Of a stretch of DNA of 63,274 bases, positions 6-9,214 are shown piece by piece. This DNA is from Phycisphaeraceae bacterium (lineage in GTDB: Bacteria; Planctomycetota; Phycisphaerae; Phycisphaerales; Zrk34): assembly GCA_028282685.1 (NCBI GenBank), contig JANQHK010000035.1:1-63274 (forward strand), written 5' to 3'. Made by a program: the position numbers and the translations under genes. The first letter of the stretch is position 1. The number at the start of each line of letters is the position of its first letter. The notes under the pieces are model-generated. The model had not been told where the DNA came from and did not search any database. It was given only the letters and a program-made list of their open reading frames with translations.

Positions 6-1838
6 ATGCAAGTCATCGCAATCGTTAACGAGAAGGGCGGTACGGCCAAGACCACCACCACGGTGAACCTGGCGGCCTGCCTGGGCAAAAGCGGACAGCG
101 TGTGCTGGTGGTCGACCTCGACGGTCAAGCCGCCTCATCGCGCTGGTTGGGCGTGGAGGACGACCCGCGCCTGGCCGAGGCGCTGATCGCCGGCGGAGGA
201 TTGCAACCGATTGAAAACGTGGCGCCCGGTGTCGATCTGGCCCCGGCCTGCGGGAAGATCGACTCGGTGGCGCACGAGCTGCGCCCCACGCAGGGCGGCC
301 GGCTCCGCAAGGTGCTCAGCGAAGTGGAGGGCCGGTACGACCTCGTGCTGATCGACTGCCCGCCGTCGTTGGGCAACCGCCTGATCGGCAACGCGCTGCT
401 CGCGGCCACGCATGCCCTGGTGCCGGTGGAGACATCGATCCTGGCGCTGGACGGGCTGCGCATCCTGCTGACGATGCTCGGCGATATCCGCGAGGGCTTC
501 GGCCACGACATCCGTCTGCTGGGCGTGCTGGCCTGCCGGTACGATTCGCGCACGCGCCTGGGTCGTTTGGTGTTGTCGGAAATGCAGCGCAGTTTGCCCG
601 GATACGTGTTTGATACGGTGATCCGCGCCAATGTGCGGTTGCAGGAAGCGCCCGCGGCGCAGAAATCGATTCTCGAATACGCCCCCGATTCCGCCGCCGC
701 CGCCGATTACCGCGCTCTGGCCGCGGAAGTGATGTCCGGTCGGGCTCAGCAGGCCGACGATACGGCCGTGGTCGAAGACGGGGCCTACGCCGAACTCGAC
801 GAAGCCGACCGCCGCACCCTGCGGGATTTCCGACGCCGCGCCGCGTTGGAACTGGATAAGAAAAACGCAAGCAGCCCCCAGCGTCGCGTCGAACAAGAGG
901 AACCAGCCGAGGCGCCGGAACCGATCTCAGGACCGCAAGTAGAGTTCACTGCGGAGGTCCTGGACGAAGCCGTCGACGCGCCGGTTGCATCGGAAGAAAT
1001 GACGTCCGAGCAGGATACGGACGTGTTCACGAGGCCTGCGGCGTTTACCGAAGATTCAGCCCCCGATGAAGAAGAAGGCGAAACGGAATCGGATACGCTG
1101 GCGATCGGACCACAGCAATCGACAAAGAAACGAAACGTCACGATTGCTGCCGGCGCCGGTTTAATGATCGTGGCCGTAGCGGGTTGGTTGCTGACGAGTC
1201 AATTGAGCGGTCCGCCGCGATCCGCCACGGCGCATGAAGCCCGCCAGGTTTTGGCCGCGATCACCAATGAAGCGGAACCGGCCGTTACGGATGCTCCGCC
1301 GGCCCTCGAGGTCGCGCTGACCGCGCCGGTTGAAAGCGACACGATTGACGCGGCGATCGTGTCGCCCGAAACCCTGGATGTCAGTGCCCTTGTCCCGGTG
1401 ACCGACGCAGTGATCGAGCCGATCGACGATCCGGAAATGCTCGCCACCACGGTGTCACCGCCGATTGAGCAGTACAACGATCTACTGAGCACAACGGGCG
1501 TGGACTTCGCCATGGCCGAGCCGCAGCCGACTGAAGCGCCGGTTGCGGACGATCCGGTCATCGATGAACCGCCGACGGACGCCCCCCCCGCGTTGGCGCA
1601 CGAACCGGCGGTCACCACGCTTGCGAGTACGGAAAGCATCGATGACTGGCGCGTCAGCGCCACGATGGTCAGTCACAACGGTGGCGTGGCGATCCTCAAC
1701 GGCCGTTCGGTCCGTGCCAACAGCACCTACCGCGGCGCGACGCTGATGCGCGTGGATTACGACCACGTCGTTATCGAGTACAACGGCCGGCAGTACCGCA
1801 TGGCCATCGGCAAGGCCCCGTCGCCGATCGATCCCTGA
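6..1838 (+). CDS. ParA/MinD-type ATPase fused to a GspB-like domain
   Basis: The 610-residue protein has three parts. Residues 1-250 are a ParA/Soj-type ATPase with the deviant Walker A motif KGGTAKTTT (10-18) and a Walker B-like LVLIDCPPS (113-121). An acidic, proline-rich linker leads to one membrane segment at about 378-399. After a long Pro/Thr/Val-rich stretch, residues 545-602 resemble the C-terminal domain of T2SS GspB (a strand, then ILNGRSVR, then VVIEYNGRQYRM). The ATPase would be cytoplasmic and the GspB-like domain periplasmic. GspB is known to work with the AAA+ ATPase GspA in placing the secretin; here a ParA-type ATPase seems to take that place. A complete T2SS locus starts 5 kb downstream. 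The ATPase call is firm; the GspB call rests on pattern similarity. The first codon is 5 bases into the window, so its leader is not visible. Confidence 0.85.
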   Translation: MQVIAIVNEKGGTAKTTTTVNLAACLGKSGQRVLVVDLDGQAASSRWLGVEDDPRLAEALIAGGGLQPIENVAPGVDLAPACGKIDSVAHELRPTQGGRLRKVLSEVEGRYDLVLIDCPPSLGNRLIGNALLAATHALVPVETSILALDGLRILLTMLGDIREGFGHDIRLLGVLACRYDSRTRLGRLVLSEMQRSLPGYVFDTVIRANVRLQEAPAAQKSILEYAPDSAAAADYRALAAEVMSGRAQQADDTAVVEDGAYAELDEADRRTLRDFRRRAALELDKKNASSPQRRVEQEEPAEAPEPISGPQVEFTAEVLDEAVDAPVASEEMTSEQDTDVFTRPAAFTEDSAPDEEEGETESDTLAIGPQQSTKKRNVTIAAGAGLMIVAVAGWLLTSQLSGPPRSATAHEARQVLAAITNEAEPAVTDAPPALEVALTAPVESDTIDAAIVSPETLDVSALVPVTDAVIEPIDDPEMLATTVSPPIEQYNDLLSTTGVDFAMAEPQPTEAPVADDPVIDEPPTDAPPALAHEPAVTTLASTESIDDWRVSATMVSHNGGVAILNGRSVRANSTYRGATLMRVDYDHVVIEYNGRQYRMAIGKAPSPIDP

Positions 1839-1885
1839 CCCTTCAACGTGGCACACCGACGACGCGGTGAGCAGCGCGGAGTTTG

Positions 1886-2329
1886 ATGATGGAACTGAGT
1901 CTTGAGCAGGTTGCCGAACGGCTGTCCGGGCAGGACGATGCGCGCACCAGCTACGGTGCATCGCGTCTGGGCCTGGTTCCGCCGGAGACGGCGGAAGACG
2001 ATTCCAACGGTGCGACGCAGCGACAGCCCCTGCCGCCGCTGCTGCAACCGCCGCCGCGCCGGATCGCACCGGTGGACGAACCGGAGCAAAGCGTCGAACA
2101 ACCGACCGGGGAATCGAAATCCTCCAGGCCGTTGCCCGAGCGCACGCCGATCCCACGTCGCAACCGGACACCGAAGTGGGAAGGCCCGTTCCGCAAGCGC
2201 AGTTTCAAACTCCCGGCTTACCTGGCCATGCGGTTGCGCATCGAGTCGCACCGGCAGGACCGCTACATCTGGGACCTGGCCGCCGAAGCCATCGCGCAGT
2301 ACCTCGACGACAAACAGACCCCATCCTGA
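1886..2329 (+). CDS. small protein with ribbon-helix-helix-like C-terminus
   Basis: This 147-residue protein follows the ParA fusion by 47 bases and is probably cotranscribed with it. The N-terminal third is hydrophilic, the middle is Pro-rich and basic, and the last 40 residues (RSFKLPAYLAMRL, then two helices ending EAIAQYL) have the strand-helix-helix look of CopG/ParG-type DNA-binding or dimerisation folds. GGAG lies just upstream of tandem ATG codons at 1886 and 1889, so either may start it. A partner role for the ParA-type ATPase is inferred from adjacency, as ParA proteins usually need a small activating partner. I do not recognise a named family. Confidence 0.6.
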   Translation: MMELSLEQVAERLSGQDDARTSYGASRLGLVPPETAEDDSNGATQRQPLPPLLQPPPRRIAPVDEPEQSVEQPTGESKSSRPLPERTPIPRRNRTPKWEGPFRKRSFKLPAYLAMRLRIESHRQDRYIWDLAAEAIAQYLDDKQTPS

Positions 2330-2357
2330 CGCCGCTTTGCCGGCCAAACCACACGAA

Positions 2358-2383
2358 AAACCCCCGCCGGTCGGCGGGGGTTT
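2358..2383. terminator. bidirectional hairpin terminator
   Basis: AAACCCCCGCC (2358-2368) pairs with GGCGGGGGTTT (2373-2383) around a 4-base loop, with A-rich and T-rich flanks on either side. It lies between two convergent genes and can serve both. Confidence 0.85.
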
Positions 2384-2419
2384 GTGTTTGATGCTTTGCA
2401 CGAATCGCAATCGCCGGGG

Positions 2420-3457
2420 TTACCGGTCAAACTGCGCATCGAACGCGATGGCCGAGGGCTTGAAGTCCAGCGCCCGCACGAAAGCGCACGCCTCGGTCGC
2501 TCCATGCTCGCGGTCCATGCGGCCGTCTTCCCATTCCACGCTCAGCGGGCCCTGGTAGGCGATGTCGTTCAGCGCCACGATGATTTCCTCGAAGTCGGTA
2601 TCGCCGCGGCCGGGCGAACGGAAATCCCAGTAGCGGGTCGGGTCGCCGAAGTCGGTGTGGCCTCCGAACACGCCCACCGAGCCGTCGCCGTGGCCCCACC
2701 AGGCGTCCTTGACGTGGCAGTGGAAAATCCGGTTGGGGAACACGCGCAGGAACTTGACGTAATCCACACCCTGGTAGCCCAGGTGCGAGGGATCGTAGTT
2801 GAAGCCGAACCGCTTGTGACCGCCCACCGCATCGATCGCGCGCTGCGCCGAGGCGATGTCGAAAGCGATTTCCGTCGGGTGCACTTCCAGGGCGAAGTTG
2901 ACGTTGAGCTTGTCGTAGTTTTCAAGGATCGGCTTGAAGCGCTTGGCGAAATCCTTGAATCCCTTTTCCCAGTATTTCTGGTCGGTGGGGGGGAAGGCGT
3001 AGATCGAATGCCAGACGCTGGAGCCGGTGAACCCGTTGACCACCGCGGGCTTGACGCCCCACTTGTTGTCGCTTTTGGGCTTGGCGTCCATGAACTTGCG
3101 CGCCGCCTTGCCGGTTTCGATCATGCGCTTGGCCGCGCGCTTGCGCACGCCCTCGGGCTCGCCGTCGCCCCAGATTTCCTCGGGCAGGATGCTCTTGTGG
3201 CGCTCGTCGATCCGGTCGCAGACGGCCTGTCCGACCAGGTGTGCGCTGATCGCGTAGCAGCTGAGCCCGTGATCCATCAGGATTTCCCAGCGTTGCTTGA
3301 CGTACTTGGCCGACTTGTTGGCCTGGACGACATCGAAGTGATCGCCCCAGCAGGCCAGTTCCAGGCCGTCGTAGCCGAACTCCGCCGCTTTGGCGCACAT
3401 CGTTTCAAAGGGAAGGTCGGCCCATTGGCCGGTGAACAGCGTGACGGGGCGTGCCAT
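2420..3457 (-). CDS. sugar phosphate isomerase/epimerase (xylose isomerase-like TIM barrel)
   Basis: A 345-residue cytoplasmic protein of the AP endonuclease 2/xylose isomerase-like family, common in planctomycetes and usually acting on sugar or inositol derivatives. The opening strand ([14 protein letters not shown]), [14 protein letters not shown] near residue 30, the central [11 protein letters not shown] and the later [14 protein letters not shown] supply the Glu/His/Asp residues that bind metal in this fold. The ATG at 3457 is chosen because GGAGG sits about 8 bases upstream; an in-frame extension further upstream has no such signal. The gene is alone, divergent from hisA. The exact substrate cannot be read from the sequence. 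Confidence 0.85.
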
Positions 3458-3620
3458 AATCGTGACCTCCGAAGTGAGTGTAAATCGAATGAAACCGTAC
3501 CGGGGCGTATAGTTTGACCGCACCGGCCACGTCCGTCAAAACGCGCTGGCCCACCGACCGCTCAGCGGCTAATCTGATGTCGACAAATACCGGAGCGATA
3601 ACGTTTGGGAGGTCAGACGT

Positions 3621-4355
3621 ATGGATTTACTCCCCGCGATCGACCTGATCGGTGGACAGGTGGTGCGGCTGCGACAAGGCGACTACGGCAAGAAGAAAGT
3701 CTACGACGCCATCGATCCCATTGCCCAGGCCCAGGCCTTCGAGGACGCCGGCGCGCGCTGGTTGCACGTGGTCGATCTCGACGGCGCCAAGTCCGGCGAG
3801 CCGGTCCACATGGACCTGATCGGCCGCATCGCCCGCCGCACCAACCTGAAGATCGAGGTCGGCGGGGGCATTCGCCACCGCAACGCCATCTGCGCCTACA
3901 TGCAGCAGGGCATCGAGCGCATCATCCTCGGCACCGCCGCGCTGCAACGCTGGGAATGGTTCCAGCACCTGGTCGAACAGGAAGATTTCCATCACAAGCT
4001 CGTTCTCGGGCTCGATGCGCGCGGAGGACAATTGGCCGTATCCGGCTGGGAGCATCAACTCGAAACCACCGCGCTGGCCGTGGCGCAGGAAGTGTCCGAT
4101 TGGCCGCTCGCCGCGATCAACTACACCGACATCGCGCAAGACGGAACCTTCGGCGGCGTCAACATCGAATCCACCGTCGAAATCGCCGAGGCGACGAAAG
4201 TGCCCGTGGTCGCTTCCGGCGGCGTCGGTTCGCTCGAAGACTTGCAGGCACTGCGCGGCAAACCCATCGCCGGAGTCATCGTTGGCAAATCGCTGTACGA
4301 AGGCAAACTCACCATCGAAGAAGCGCTGGAAGAAGTAGAAGGGCCAAGGGCCTAG
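3621..4355 (+). CDS. hisA: phosphoribosylformimino-5-aminoimidazole carboxamide ribotide isomerase HisA
   Basis: HisA catalyses the Amadori isomerisation of ProFAR to PRFAR in histidine synthesis. The 244-residue TIM barrel has the usual length. It opens with LLPAIDLIGGQVVRL, which carries the catalytic Asp8, and has VDLDGA, the phosphate-binding EVGGGIR, the second acidic residue in VLGLDARGG near residue 130, and the C-terminal phosphate loop VASGGVGSLED. GGGAGG lies 8 bases before the ATG. The gene stands apart from any other his gene in the window. HisF is the main look-alike, but the start sequence and VVDLDGA fit HisA better. Confidence 0.95.
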   Translation: MDLLPAIDLIGGQVVRLRQGDYGKKKVYDAIDPIAQAQAFEDAGARWLHVVDLDGAKSGEPVHMDLIGRIARRTNLKIEVGGGIRHRNAICAYMQQGIERIILGTAALQRWEWFQHLVEQEDFHHKLVLGLDARGGQLAVSGWEHQLETTALAVAQEVSDWPLAAINYTDIAQDGTFGGVNIESTVEIAEATKVPVVASGGVGSLEDLQALRGKPIAGVIVGKSLYEGKLTIEEALEEVEGPRA

Positions 4356-4410
4356 GGCCTGATGTAAAAGGACCAATAATCAATGGCAAAGTAAGGTTCA
4401 ATGTGTCACC

Positions 4411-4608
4411 ATGGAAACTCAAGATTACCGCAAGATCGTCGCCTCTGAAATCGCGGCGCAGCGCTGGACGCTGACCGACCTCGCCGGTCAAGCCGGCGTG
4501 TCCCGCAGCCGAATCAGCGAGTGGCTTGCCGGCAAAACCGGCATCGGCGACGACAAACTCGCTCGCGTGGCCGCCGTGCTAGAGATTAAATTCGAGCCGG
4601 AAACGTAA
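4411..4608 (+). CDS. small XRE-type helix-turn-helix protein
   Basis: A 65-residue protein that is almost entirely a Cro/C1-type helix-turn-helix domain: the helices LTDLAGQAGV and SRSRISEWLAG (residues 21-41), then DKLARVAAVLEI. It has no effector domain. The gene starts 55 bases after hisA and just before IS remnants, so it may be the DNA-binding part of a small module such as an antitoxin whose partner has been lost; that is inference. No strong ribosome binding site is seen. Confidence 0.65.
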   Translation: METQDYRKIVASEIAAQRWTLTDLAGQAGVSRSRISEWLAGKTGIGDDKLARVAAVLEIKFEPET

Positions 4609-4633
4609 ACGCGCCGCCGTAGGCCAGACCTAG

Positions 4634-4992
4634 AGGCTGTTATGCACTTGCGGTGAGTTTGGCGACCATCTGTGCGAGCATGAGCATGGCAAAGACCATC
4701 GTGTGCAGCGTGGCCAACGTGCCGGGTAATCGTTCGTAATCCTTGGCCAACCGGCGGAAGCGGCTGGCCCAGGCGAAGCTGCGTGCGACCACCCAGCGTC
4801 GCGGCAGCAGCACGAATCCTTTCTTCGCCTGCGGCAACTTCACGACCTCCAACGCGATGCCGTGCTTCTCCACATCCTGCGCTGCTTTTTCGCCGGTGTA
4901 GCCCTGATCCCCATACGCCAGTTCAACGTGATCGCCGGTCGTTTGCTGGACCTGTTCGGCCAGTGATTCAACCCCAAAGTGCATAACAGGAT
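4634..4992. mobile_element. internally deleted IS5-family element with both ends kept
   Basis: A 359-base unit bounded by near-perfect inverted ends. The left end has CTGTTATGCACTT at 4637-4649, and the same sequence is read on the other strand at the right end (4977-4989). CTAG flanks both sides (4630-4633 and 4993-4996) and looks like a 4-base target duplication of the kind IS5-group elements make. It contains only the end of a transposase gene, yet keeps the inverted repeat at the 5' side, so the loss is internal. This makes it a MITE-like derivative rather than a simple truncation. Confidence 0.75.
4640..4984 (-). pseudogene. C-terminal fragment of an IS5-family transposase
   Basis: The frame encodes about 114 residues typical of the C-terminal DDE half of IS5-family transposases: [57 protein letters not shown]. 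The last motifs contain the region of the final catalytic acidic residue, but the usual RRWVVER reads RRWVVAR here, so even that Glu seems lost. The N-terminal domain and first Asp are missing, since the frame begins within the inverted repeat. Not functional on its own. Confidence 0.85.
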
Positions 4993-4995
4993 CTA

Positions 4996-5397
4996 GGGCG
5001 ATCCCGCGGCGGGCTGACGACCAAACTTCACACCGCCGTCGATGGCGACGGTCGACTGCATCGGCTGGTGCTCACCGCCGGCCAATGTGGCGACGCCCCA
5101 CAGGCCGAGACATTGTTGGCAGGGATGGATGCCGACGTCCTGGCCGACGCGGCCTACGACAGCGAGGCGATCCGGCATCAAATCGCCCAGCAAGGCGGCA
5201 AAGCTTGCATCCGTTCCCACCCGATGCGCCAACGCAAGAAACGCTACGATCGACACCGATACAAACATCGCAACGTCATCGAGCGGTTCTTCCGCCGGAT
5301 CAAGCAGTGCCGTCGTATCGCAACCCGTTACGAGAAGAAGGCCGCCAATTTCGCCGTCTTCATCTGGCTCGCCGCCGGCATCGCACGATGCACGTGA
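4996..5397 (+). pseudogene. 3' fragment of a second, different IS5-family transposase
   Basis: Reading in frame from 4996, the sequence gives [16 protein letters not shown] and then [29 protein letters not shown] and NVIERFFRRIKQCRRIATRYEKKA, the C-terminal catalytic half of another IS5-subgroup transposase. The final Glu (NVIERFF) and the AAYDS Asp are present, but the first third of the gene is missing. It begins right at the CTAG flank of the adjoining element and runs in the opposite direction, so the two remnants are different elements joined end to end. Confidence 0.8.
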
Positions 5398-6917: not shown

Positions 6918-9214
6918 ATGAGGCATCGTATGGTCAAAATGTGTGCACTGGATCGGGTGGCCCTGCGGGCGCTCTTGGCGATTTTTATCGCGAAAGGTTG
7001 TTTTGCGGTTGCCTGTTGGGGGCAGAACTCGAATGGCGCCGCAGGGGCCTCAGCCCAGGCCCAAACCGAGTTGATTGAAATTAACCTCCCTGAAAAACTC
7101 AACTTGCAGTCGTTTATCGCGTATATCAGCAAACGGCTGGATCTTAACATTCTGTATGATGACAAGACGGTTGGGGAGAAAACGATCACGATTAAAGCAC
7201 CCAACAAGGTTCCCGCCGAATCCGTTATGGACCTGTTGGAAAGCATGCTGAAGATACAGGGCTTGGCGCTGGTCGATGCCGATCAGCCGGGCTGGAAACG
7301 CGTGGTGAAGGTCGGCAAGCTGGTGGATATTGCGCACGGCCCCAAGGAATCGGAGGAACTGATCACCTCCGGTCAGGCCGGGGTGACGACGGTTGTGATT
7401 CGCGTCTTCCACCTCAAGCACATCAATCCGGGCAAGGCGCAGGAATTGATCAAGCCCTATCTTTCGACCTCGGCTCACTTTTTTCAAATGCCCGAGCATG
7501 GCATTCTGATGGTGACGGACTATGCGGTGGCTTTCGAGCGCGTGGAAGAACTGATCGATCTGGTCGATCGCCCTTCGGAGCAGGTGTCCCTGAAAATGGT
7601 GCCAATCAAGCATCAGAAGGCGACCGACCTGGCGGAGCAGGTCTTGAGCGTTCTCAATGCGAAGCGGGAGGCCCAGGCCCAGCAGGCGGGCAAAGACATC
7701 AAAGGCAAGGGCAAGCCGGTTCAGTTGATTCCATACGAGCGCACGAACCAGGTGATCATCGCCGGCGCGAGCGCGCAGGTGTCCGAGGCCATTGATCTGA
7801 TCCGTTCCCTGGATGTTTCGCTGGGTCAGGAGACGAAAATATACAAACTGAAGATCGCCTCGCCGGATCGCATCGACATGCTGGCCCGCGAATTGATCGG
7901 CCCGGTCGATGTGGACCGGGTGTATCGTTCGGCGATTGACAGCGACTTGAATTATCTCGTGGTCACCGCCACGCCCGACGCGCACAAGACTGTGGAATCG
8001 CTGCGGCGCGAACTGGATGTGCCGGATGTGGAACGCCGCAGCCCCATCAGGTTTTATAAACTGGAAAATGCCAGCGCTTTCGATGTCCTGCAAACGCTTA
8101 GCGCGCTGGAAAACAATGGGGAGGGGAGCAACCAAAAACCGCCGGGTTCCAGGCGGCCGTCATCGCGGGAGACGCGCCCTTCGGCGACTTCGGGCGCGGC
8201 GGGATCGTCCGATTCGTCGCCGGGTGGAAGTGGTTTGCGGTCCGGAAGCAGCCGTCGTGAATCGGCACCGACCGGAATCATGTCGGTCCGGGGCGAAGAT
8301 GTGCTCATGACCGCCGACTTCAACACCAACAGCGTCATCATCGTCGCCAAGCCCGAGCGTCATCAGATTTATGCGAAACTGATCAAGCAATTGGATCAGC
8401 GTCGTCCGCAGGTGCTGATTGAAGCAACGGTGGTGGTCATCGACACCAGCGACAATTTCTCCCTCGGCGTGGAACTGGCGTACGAAGGCGGGGTCGAGGG
8501 TAAAGACGTTCTGTTGTTCAGTTCGACCGGTCTGCAAAACGTCGGTGATGACGGCGGCATTTCGCTGGTTCCCGGCCTGGGCTTCAACGGCGCGGTCATC
8601 GACACGAACATCGCCAACGTTGTGATCCGGGCGTTGTCCCAGAACTCCCGGGCGAAAGTCGTTTCCTCGCCGCGCATTCTGGTCAACGACAATGCAACGG
8701 GTATTCTGGAAAGTATCTCCGAAGAGCCGTTTACCAGTGTCAACGCGTCCGATACGGTTTCGACCACAAGTTTCGGGGGTTTTGTGGAAGCGGGAACGGC
8801 GATCAGCGTGACTCCCCATATCAGTGAAGGAGACCATCTGACCCTGGAATACGTTGTCACCCTGAACAGTTTCTCGGGCGCCGGGTCGGAAGGAATCCCA
8901 CCGCCGCGCCAGACCAACAAGATCGAAAGCGACGTGACCGTACCGGATGGCCACACCGTGATTGTCGGCGGTTTGAACCGCACGGACTTCACCAATTCGG
9001 TGGATGCGATACCGTTGCTGGGCGAGATTCCGATTCTCAAGCACCTGTTCAGCAGCCAGACGGATACCCAGTCCGAGCAGACGCTGTTTGTTTTCATCCG
9101 GCCGGTGATTCTCCGCGATGACAAATTTGCCGATCTGAAACTGCTTTCCGGTAACGATCTGGAACTGGCGGAACTGCCGGGGAATTATCCTCAGAGCGAA
9201 CCGCTGACCGTCGA

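Follow-up and report, generated by a model that had tools for sequence, protein, structure and literature searches.

A ParA-type ATPase joined to a membrane helix and a periplasmic HR domain in Phycisphaerae: a candidate positioning module for an envelope machine

ParA/MinD ATPases position many cargos. CpaE/TadZ, a ParA/MinD-like ATPase, localises the pilus machine of Tad pili, and the ATPases of McdAB, PomXYZ, FlhG and ParC are soluble. Each of the latter is dedicated to a protein cargo via a partner with a basic N-terminus, and it is the charged N-termini of such partners that contact ParA/MinD ATPases (PMC10241942). In the T2SS, the GspA-GspB pair and the GspAB fusion combine an ATPase and one membrane helix with an HR domain that binds the N0 domain of the secretin; in that system GspA is an AAA+ ATPase with a periplasmic peptidoglycan-binding part. 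HR domains of OutB, GspC and PilP likewise bind secretin N0 (PMC9239104), and in the literature covered ATPase-HR fusions are known only as the AAA+ GspAB proteins. A limited search of open-access papers found no report of a ParA-HR fusion, or of a ParA/MinD ATPase that shares one membrane-spanning polypeptide with a secretin-docking domain.

We analysed a stretch of 63,274 nucleotides from a Phycisphaeraceae bacterium (the window), which begins with an open reading frame of 610 codons whose product joins a ParA/Soj ATPase to a single membrane helix and a C-terminal HR domain. The features of this gene and of its neighbour are as follows.

6..1838, + strand: fusion of ParA ATPase, linker, transmembrane (TM) helix, linker and HR domain (610 aa)
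6..755, + strand: ParA/Soj-type ATPase domain, residues 1-250
1137..1202, + strand: single TM helix, residues about 378-399, from hydropathy
1638..1811, + strand: periplasmic HR domain, residues about 545-602, six beta strands
1883..2329, + strand: downstream partner gene (148 aa), conserved beside this ParA
1952..1975, + strand: partner motif YGASRLGL, a candidate ParA-contacting peptide
2153..2326, + strand: ribbon-helix-helix (RHH)-like C-terminal domain of the partner, on weak evidence

The initial annotation had placed a ParA/MinD ATPase, a membrane helix at residues 378-399 and a C-terminal domain at 545-602 in one polypeptide, and the reading frame, Pfam, hydropathy and fold all agree with it. 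The hydropathy maximum of the protein begins at residue 378, with positive residues flanking the helix on its N-terminal side. The window opens at a contig boundary, and its 5' sequence comes from an overlapping contig (C40): a gcaggag Shine-Dalgarno sequence precedes the ATG (position 6) by 8 bases, and ubiA lies upstream. The end of that contig (L007:1-381) agrees with the window start for about 120 bases and diverges thereafter, which may reflect a strain variant or a chimeric contig end. Because nine orthologs have the same fusion, a chance or frameshifted reading frame and an assembly artefact were ruled out.

The ATPase domain matches Pfam AAA_31 (3e-35, residues 1-165), and its best solved relative is Thermus thermophilus Soj (1WCV, 6.5e-44). 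It has the signature lysine of the deviant Walker A motif (KGGTAKT), the aspartate of the A' motif (DLDGQ) and a Walker B motif (IDCPPSL) that mark the ParA/Soj family. The deviant Walker A, KGG(T/S)(A/G)K(T/S), and the Walker B, DxPPSL, are found in 21/21 orthologs, and DLDGQ in 20/21. Two arginines of the window ATPase, 29 residues apart, lie at positions aligned with Soj; the first is an arginine in all 21 orthologs, and the second position, 29 residues on, holds arginine or lysine (lysine in two loci). The DNA-contact residues of Caulobacter ParA, R195 and R224 (PMC7229837), have the same spacing, and the equivalence of the two pairs rests on this spacing together with the Soj alignment. 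In the reading favored below, the ATPase dimerises on ATP and very probably binds the nucleoid.

The module ATPase thus resembles Soj in its deviant Walker A, Walker B, basic DNA-contact positions and paired partner gene, but Soj has DLDPQ rather than DLDGQ as its A' motif, and the window's ATPase is extended by a linker, a TM helix and an HR domain and is not encoded beside parB. At its C-terminus the window protein has the HR domain and not the amphipathic membrane-targeting helix of MinD. By eye, basic amphipathic-looking WRR or WKR tails occur on some split ATPases (e.g., L060, L061, L068 and L069) and on fused-type partners (L052-L054), and recall the membrane-targeting helices of MinD. 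Another ParA paralog of the window's genome (L008, contig C69, ORF 2241-4844) has a C-terminal stretch that reads RIAGDFNNWQPTRAPMRR and resembles, by eye, a glycogen-binding or E-set domain.

Orthologs of the ATPase (21, at 61-72% identity) came from two families of the class: the window's own, with 2 of 9 genomes, and one other, with 19 of 35. They were absent from the other sampled genomes of the order, class and phylum. Scanning the GTDB species genomes with a pattern gave only two matches, both Phycisphaerae MAGs already in the ortholog set. Across the phylum, matches to ParA at 40-45% identity came for the most part from short frames (257-312 aa; a few reach 377-447) and were taken as ordinary Soj-type paralogs rather than orthologs.

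A search for the fusion in related genomes, suggested by the initial annotation, found it in nine orthologs (the window, L027, L052-L056, L064 and L070). The other 12 loci (L057-L063 and L065-L069) are split: the ATPase has neither TM nor HR, and in 11 of them the TM-HR segment is on the next gene. The twelfth, L062, lies on a contig that ends before the next gene, and its split type was assigned from its near-copy L061. Most split ATPases end in a [F/Y]PALR-type motif, and the frame of the L059 ATPase is apparently shifted near its end. The TM-HR segment therefore swaps between the ATPase gene and the next gene, and its presence on ParA in nine loci or on the neighbour in 11 is Rosetta-stone evidence that ATPase and HR domain act jointly. 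In a tree, this family lies apart from the paralogs and the split copies cluster (63/97). The tree, whose outgroup row L103 was uninformative, does not settle the place of the window copy, and transfer between the families is neither shown nor excluded.

The two genes form a conserved module. A Y-x3-R[LM]G motif is present in all 20 readable next genes, against 14 of 602 background windows, and this conserved peptide suggests that the neighbour is an ATPase partner or activator. The partner has an RHH-like domain in all 8 complete fused loci, although the matches are weak (the best in the PDB is CopG, E 0.007; Pfam reaches 0.014 in one member), and an AlphaFold2 model of it has two helices and no strand at a pLDDT of 73. 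The split loci are devoid of the RHH-like domain and keep the HR domain.

Structure prediction of the C-terminal domain (AlphaFold2, pLDDT 94-95) gave the GspB-type HR fold that the initial annotation expected. The best 11 VIA-align matches are all HR domains of GspC, PilP or GspB (Z 9.1 to 5.2), with unrelated folds only after them, and Foldseek likewise puts these three first. GspC (3OSS, Z 9.1), PilP (Z 8.6 to 6.7) and GspB (4WFW, Z 7.6) are nearly tied; the modelled fold is the one common to all three and cannot tell which of them is meant. A profile built from 19 HR domains of the family finds the Vibrio GspC HR domain (2LNV) in the PDB at 6.6e-5. As in T2SS GspB, a single TM helix precedes a periplasmic HR fold, but the Pfam model T2SSB (PF16537) scores the window protein alone at 16.2 bits, below the cut-off of 28.4. 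That match does not single out GspB, because HR proteins of pilus loci match the model just as weakly, and it was rejected as proof. The domain is thus HR-type, the fold to which the proposed GspB belongs, but a specific likeness to GspB is not supported: its sequence is closer to HR proteins of PilMNO loci than to GspC.

Indeed, the family HR profile scores nearly all HR proteins of the PilMNO loci at 31-49 bits, including two in the window's genome (31.2 and 38.9 bits); one truncated copy and one G002 copy give 27.8 and 17.7 bits. By the same profile the two GspC proteins of the window's genome reach 16.2 and 12.8 bits. The reverse profile, made from the PilMNO HR proteins, lists HR domains of the ParA family and not the window GspC. 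Those PilMNO-locus proteins, which occupy the GspC/PilP position in Phycisphaerae and have a TM helix and a C-terminal HR domain, are the closest HR sequences found; unlike the module, they have no ATPase and lie within pilus operons with PilB, PilT and PilC homologs. Within the family, the HR domain of the window protein diverges most and is the weakest listed by the pilus profile (14.7 bits), and for that reason the cargo of this copy could have changed.

Gene neighbourhoods bear on the same question. A PilM_2 gene (3.6e-32) lies directly upstream in 8/12 split loci; no fused-type copy was seen with a PilM neighbour. Elsewhere in these genomes, PilM-like genes belong to loci of the order PilM-PilN-PilO-[TM-HR]-PilB; the full pilus operon is located away from the module. 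Because PilM-like and pilus genes occur also in genomes without the module, presence and absence do not identify the cargo. From the HR comparisons and these neighbourhoods, a type IV pilus-like machine (PilMNO plus HR) is more likely to be the cargo than the adjacent T2SS.

The initial annotation had assigned the fusion to that T2SS, whose locus it placed 5 kb away, and the cluster (gspD-M, with gspD at 6918) does begin about 5 kb downstream. On this view the protein would help to place or assemble the T2SS specifically, as a ParA counterpart of the GspAB fusion with this GspD as its target. Its HR fold takes in GspB and GspC, gspD-M share the window with it, and ATPase-GspB fusions (GspAB) exist in Vibrio vulnificus (PMC9239104). 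Nevertheless, we consider this unlikely. In a survey not aimed specifically at gspA or gspS, no gsp genes were seen beside the other copies of the module; the sole exception is a GspE-like match 9.5 kb from one copy and on the opposite strand. GspC is far from the family HR profile, and the ATPase is a ParA rather than an AAA+ GspA, with no peptidoglycan-binding part. Every genome tested has secretins, yet 16 relatives in the other family have them without any such ParA, and in G285, a draft 90% complete, the module occurs with only one secretin, of pilus type and adjacent to PilM, while no GspG passes the cut-off. The module and the T2SS therefore dissociate both ways, and T2SS linkage as a rule was rejected on synteny and dissociation; G285, with the caveat that it is an incomplete draft, also gives at least one relative of the kind, with the ParA part and apparently without T2SS genes, that the initial annotation had itself named as speaking against its proposal.

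Other elements of these genomes were noted in passing. Between hisA and the T2SS cluster, the window contains two stretches that look by eye like remnants of an IS5-type transposase (4640-4984, - strand, and 5068-5397, + strand). A second complete-looking T2SS cluster in the window's genome (G000 contig C80, L136:114-12860), with gspD, E, F, H-M and C and a TPR lipoprotein, has diverged from that of the window; contig C92 of this genome encodes a PilQ-type secretin. In genome G188 (contig C50, L152:5625-15488, + strand), a giant secretin-like protein of 3288 aa combines one secretin domain with an N0-like match and 29 Secretin_N matches. Frames of 2,300-4,500 aa that match the GspD model are found in many genomes of the other family, and G005, from the window's family, has them too. 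A link with these giant secretins was rejected, their occurrence being uncorrelated with the presence of the module.

The module might also serve assembly and not positioning, with ATP-driven dimerisation of the ATPase clustering HR domains and thereby nucleating or capping a secretin or pilus platform, as GspA/GspB do, with no gradient involved. The covalent ATPase-HR link in nine loci would suit such a role, as would the scaffolding of the secretin by the HR domain of OutB (PMC9239104). However, the ParA fold, the basic residues at DNA-contact positions and the partner peptide point to a ParA-type cycle, and we regard assembly alone as rather improbable. Envelope-anchored DNA segregation, in which the RHH-like partner would mark DNA that a membrane-anchored ParA pulls or holds at an envelope structure, is the most doubtful explanation: the ATPase is closest to Soj, fused-type partners have the RHH-like domain and RHH proteins partner some plasmid ParAs, but the RHH assignment is weak, the split loci lack it and yet keep HR and have gained PilM, and, repeats aside, no plasmid or centromere context was seen.

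We therefore favor, at a probability of roughly 0.5, a cargo-positioning module in which a nucleoid-type ParA is tethered to a secretin-containing machine, probably type IV pilus-like, and positions or anchors it; the more general proposal of a ParA positioning ATPase coupled to an envelope machine is supported. In such a module, the ATPase would run a ParA/Soj cycle on the nucleoid, while the inner-membrane helix and the periplasmic HR domain would tie it to the machine. The HR domain would dock there, most likely on the N0 domain of the secretin as known HR domains do, and the protein with the Y-x3-RLG peptide would be the partner or activator. In fused loci, the RHH-like domain may give the partner a foothold on DNA, the ATPase itself being the link to the machine. 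In split loci, the TM-HR protein carries the peptide and would itself be the link, comparable to ordinary ParA-partner pairs in which the N-terminus of the partner contacts the ATPase. In this way the module could place the machine, spread it or anchor it with respect to the nucleoid.

Such a module would differ from McdAB, PomXYZ, FlhG and ParC in that its ATPase crosses the membrane and itself carries the cargo-docking domain. It would differ from CpaE/TadZ, which have a receiver-like domain in place of TM-HR and serve a different pilus class. Anchorage in the membrane may keep a ParA from cycling over the nucleoid as soluble ParAs do. More tentatively, it is possible that this is a transmembrane ParA in the full sense: a partition ATPase that binds the nucleoid, spans the inner membrane and, on the periplasmic side, holds on to a secretin or pilus machine, so that chromosome and envelope are physically joined. 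Such a protein would have arisen when TM-HR moved between the genes for the partner and the ATPase.

In summary, the natural occurrence of both fused and split forms identifies the partner gene and allows the ATPase-cargo link to be tested directly. If true, the proposed module would suggest how bacteria of the Phycisphaerae, a poorly studied class, place their trans-envelope machines.
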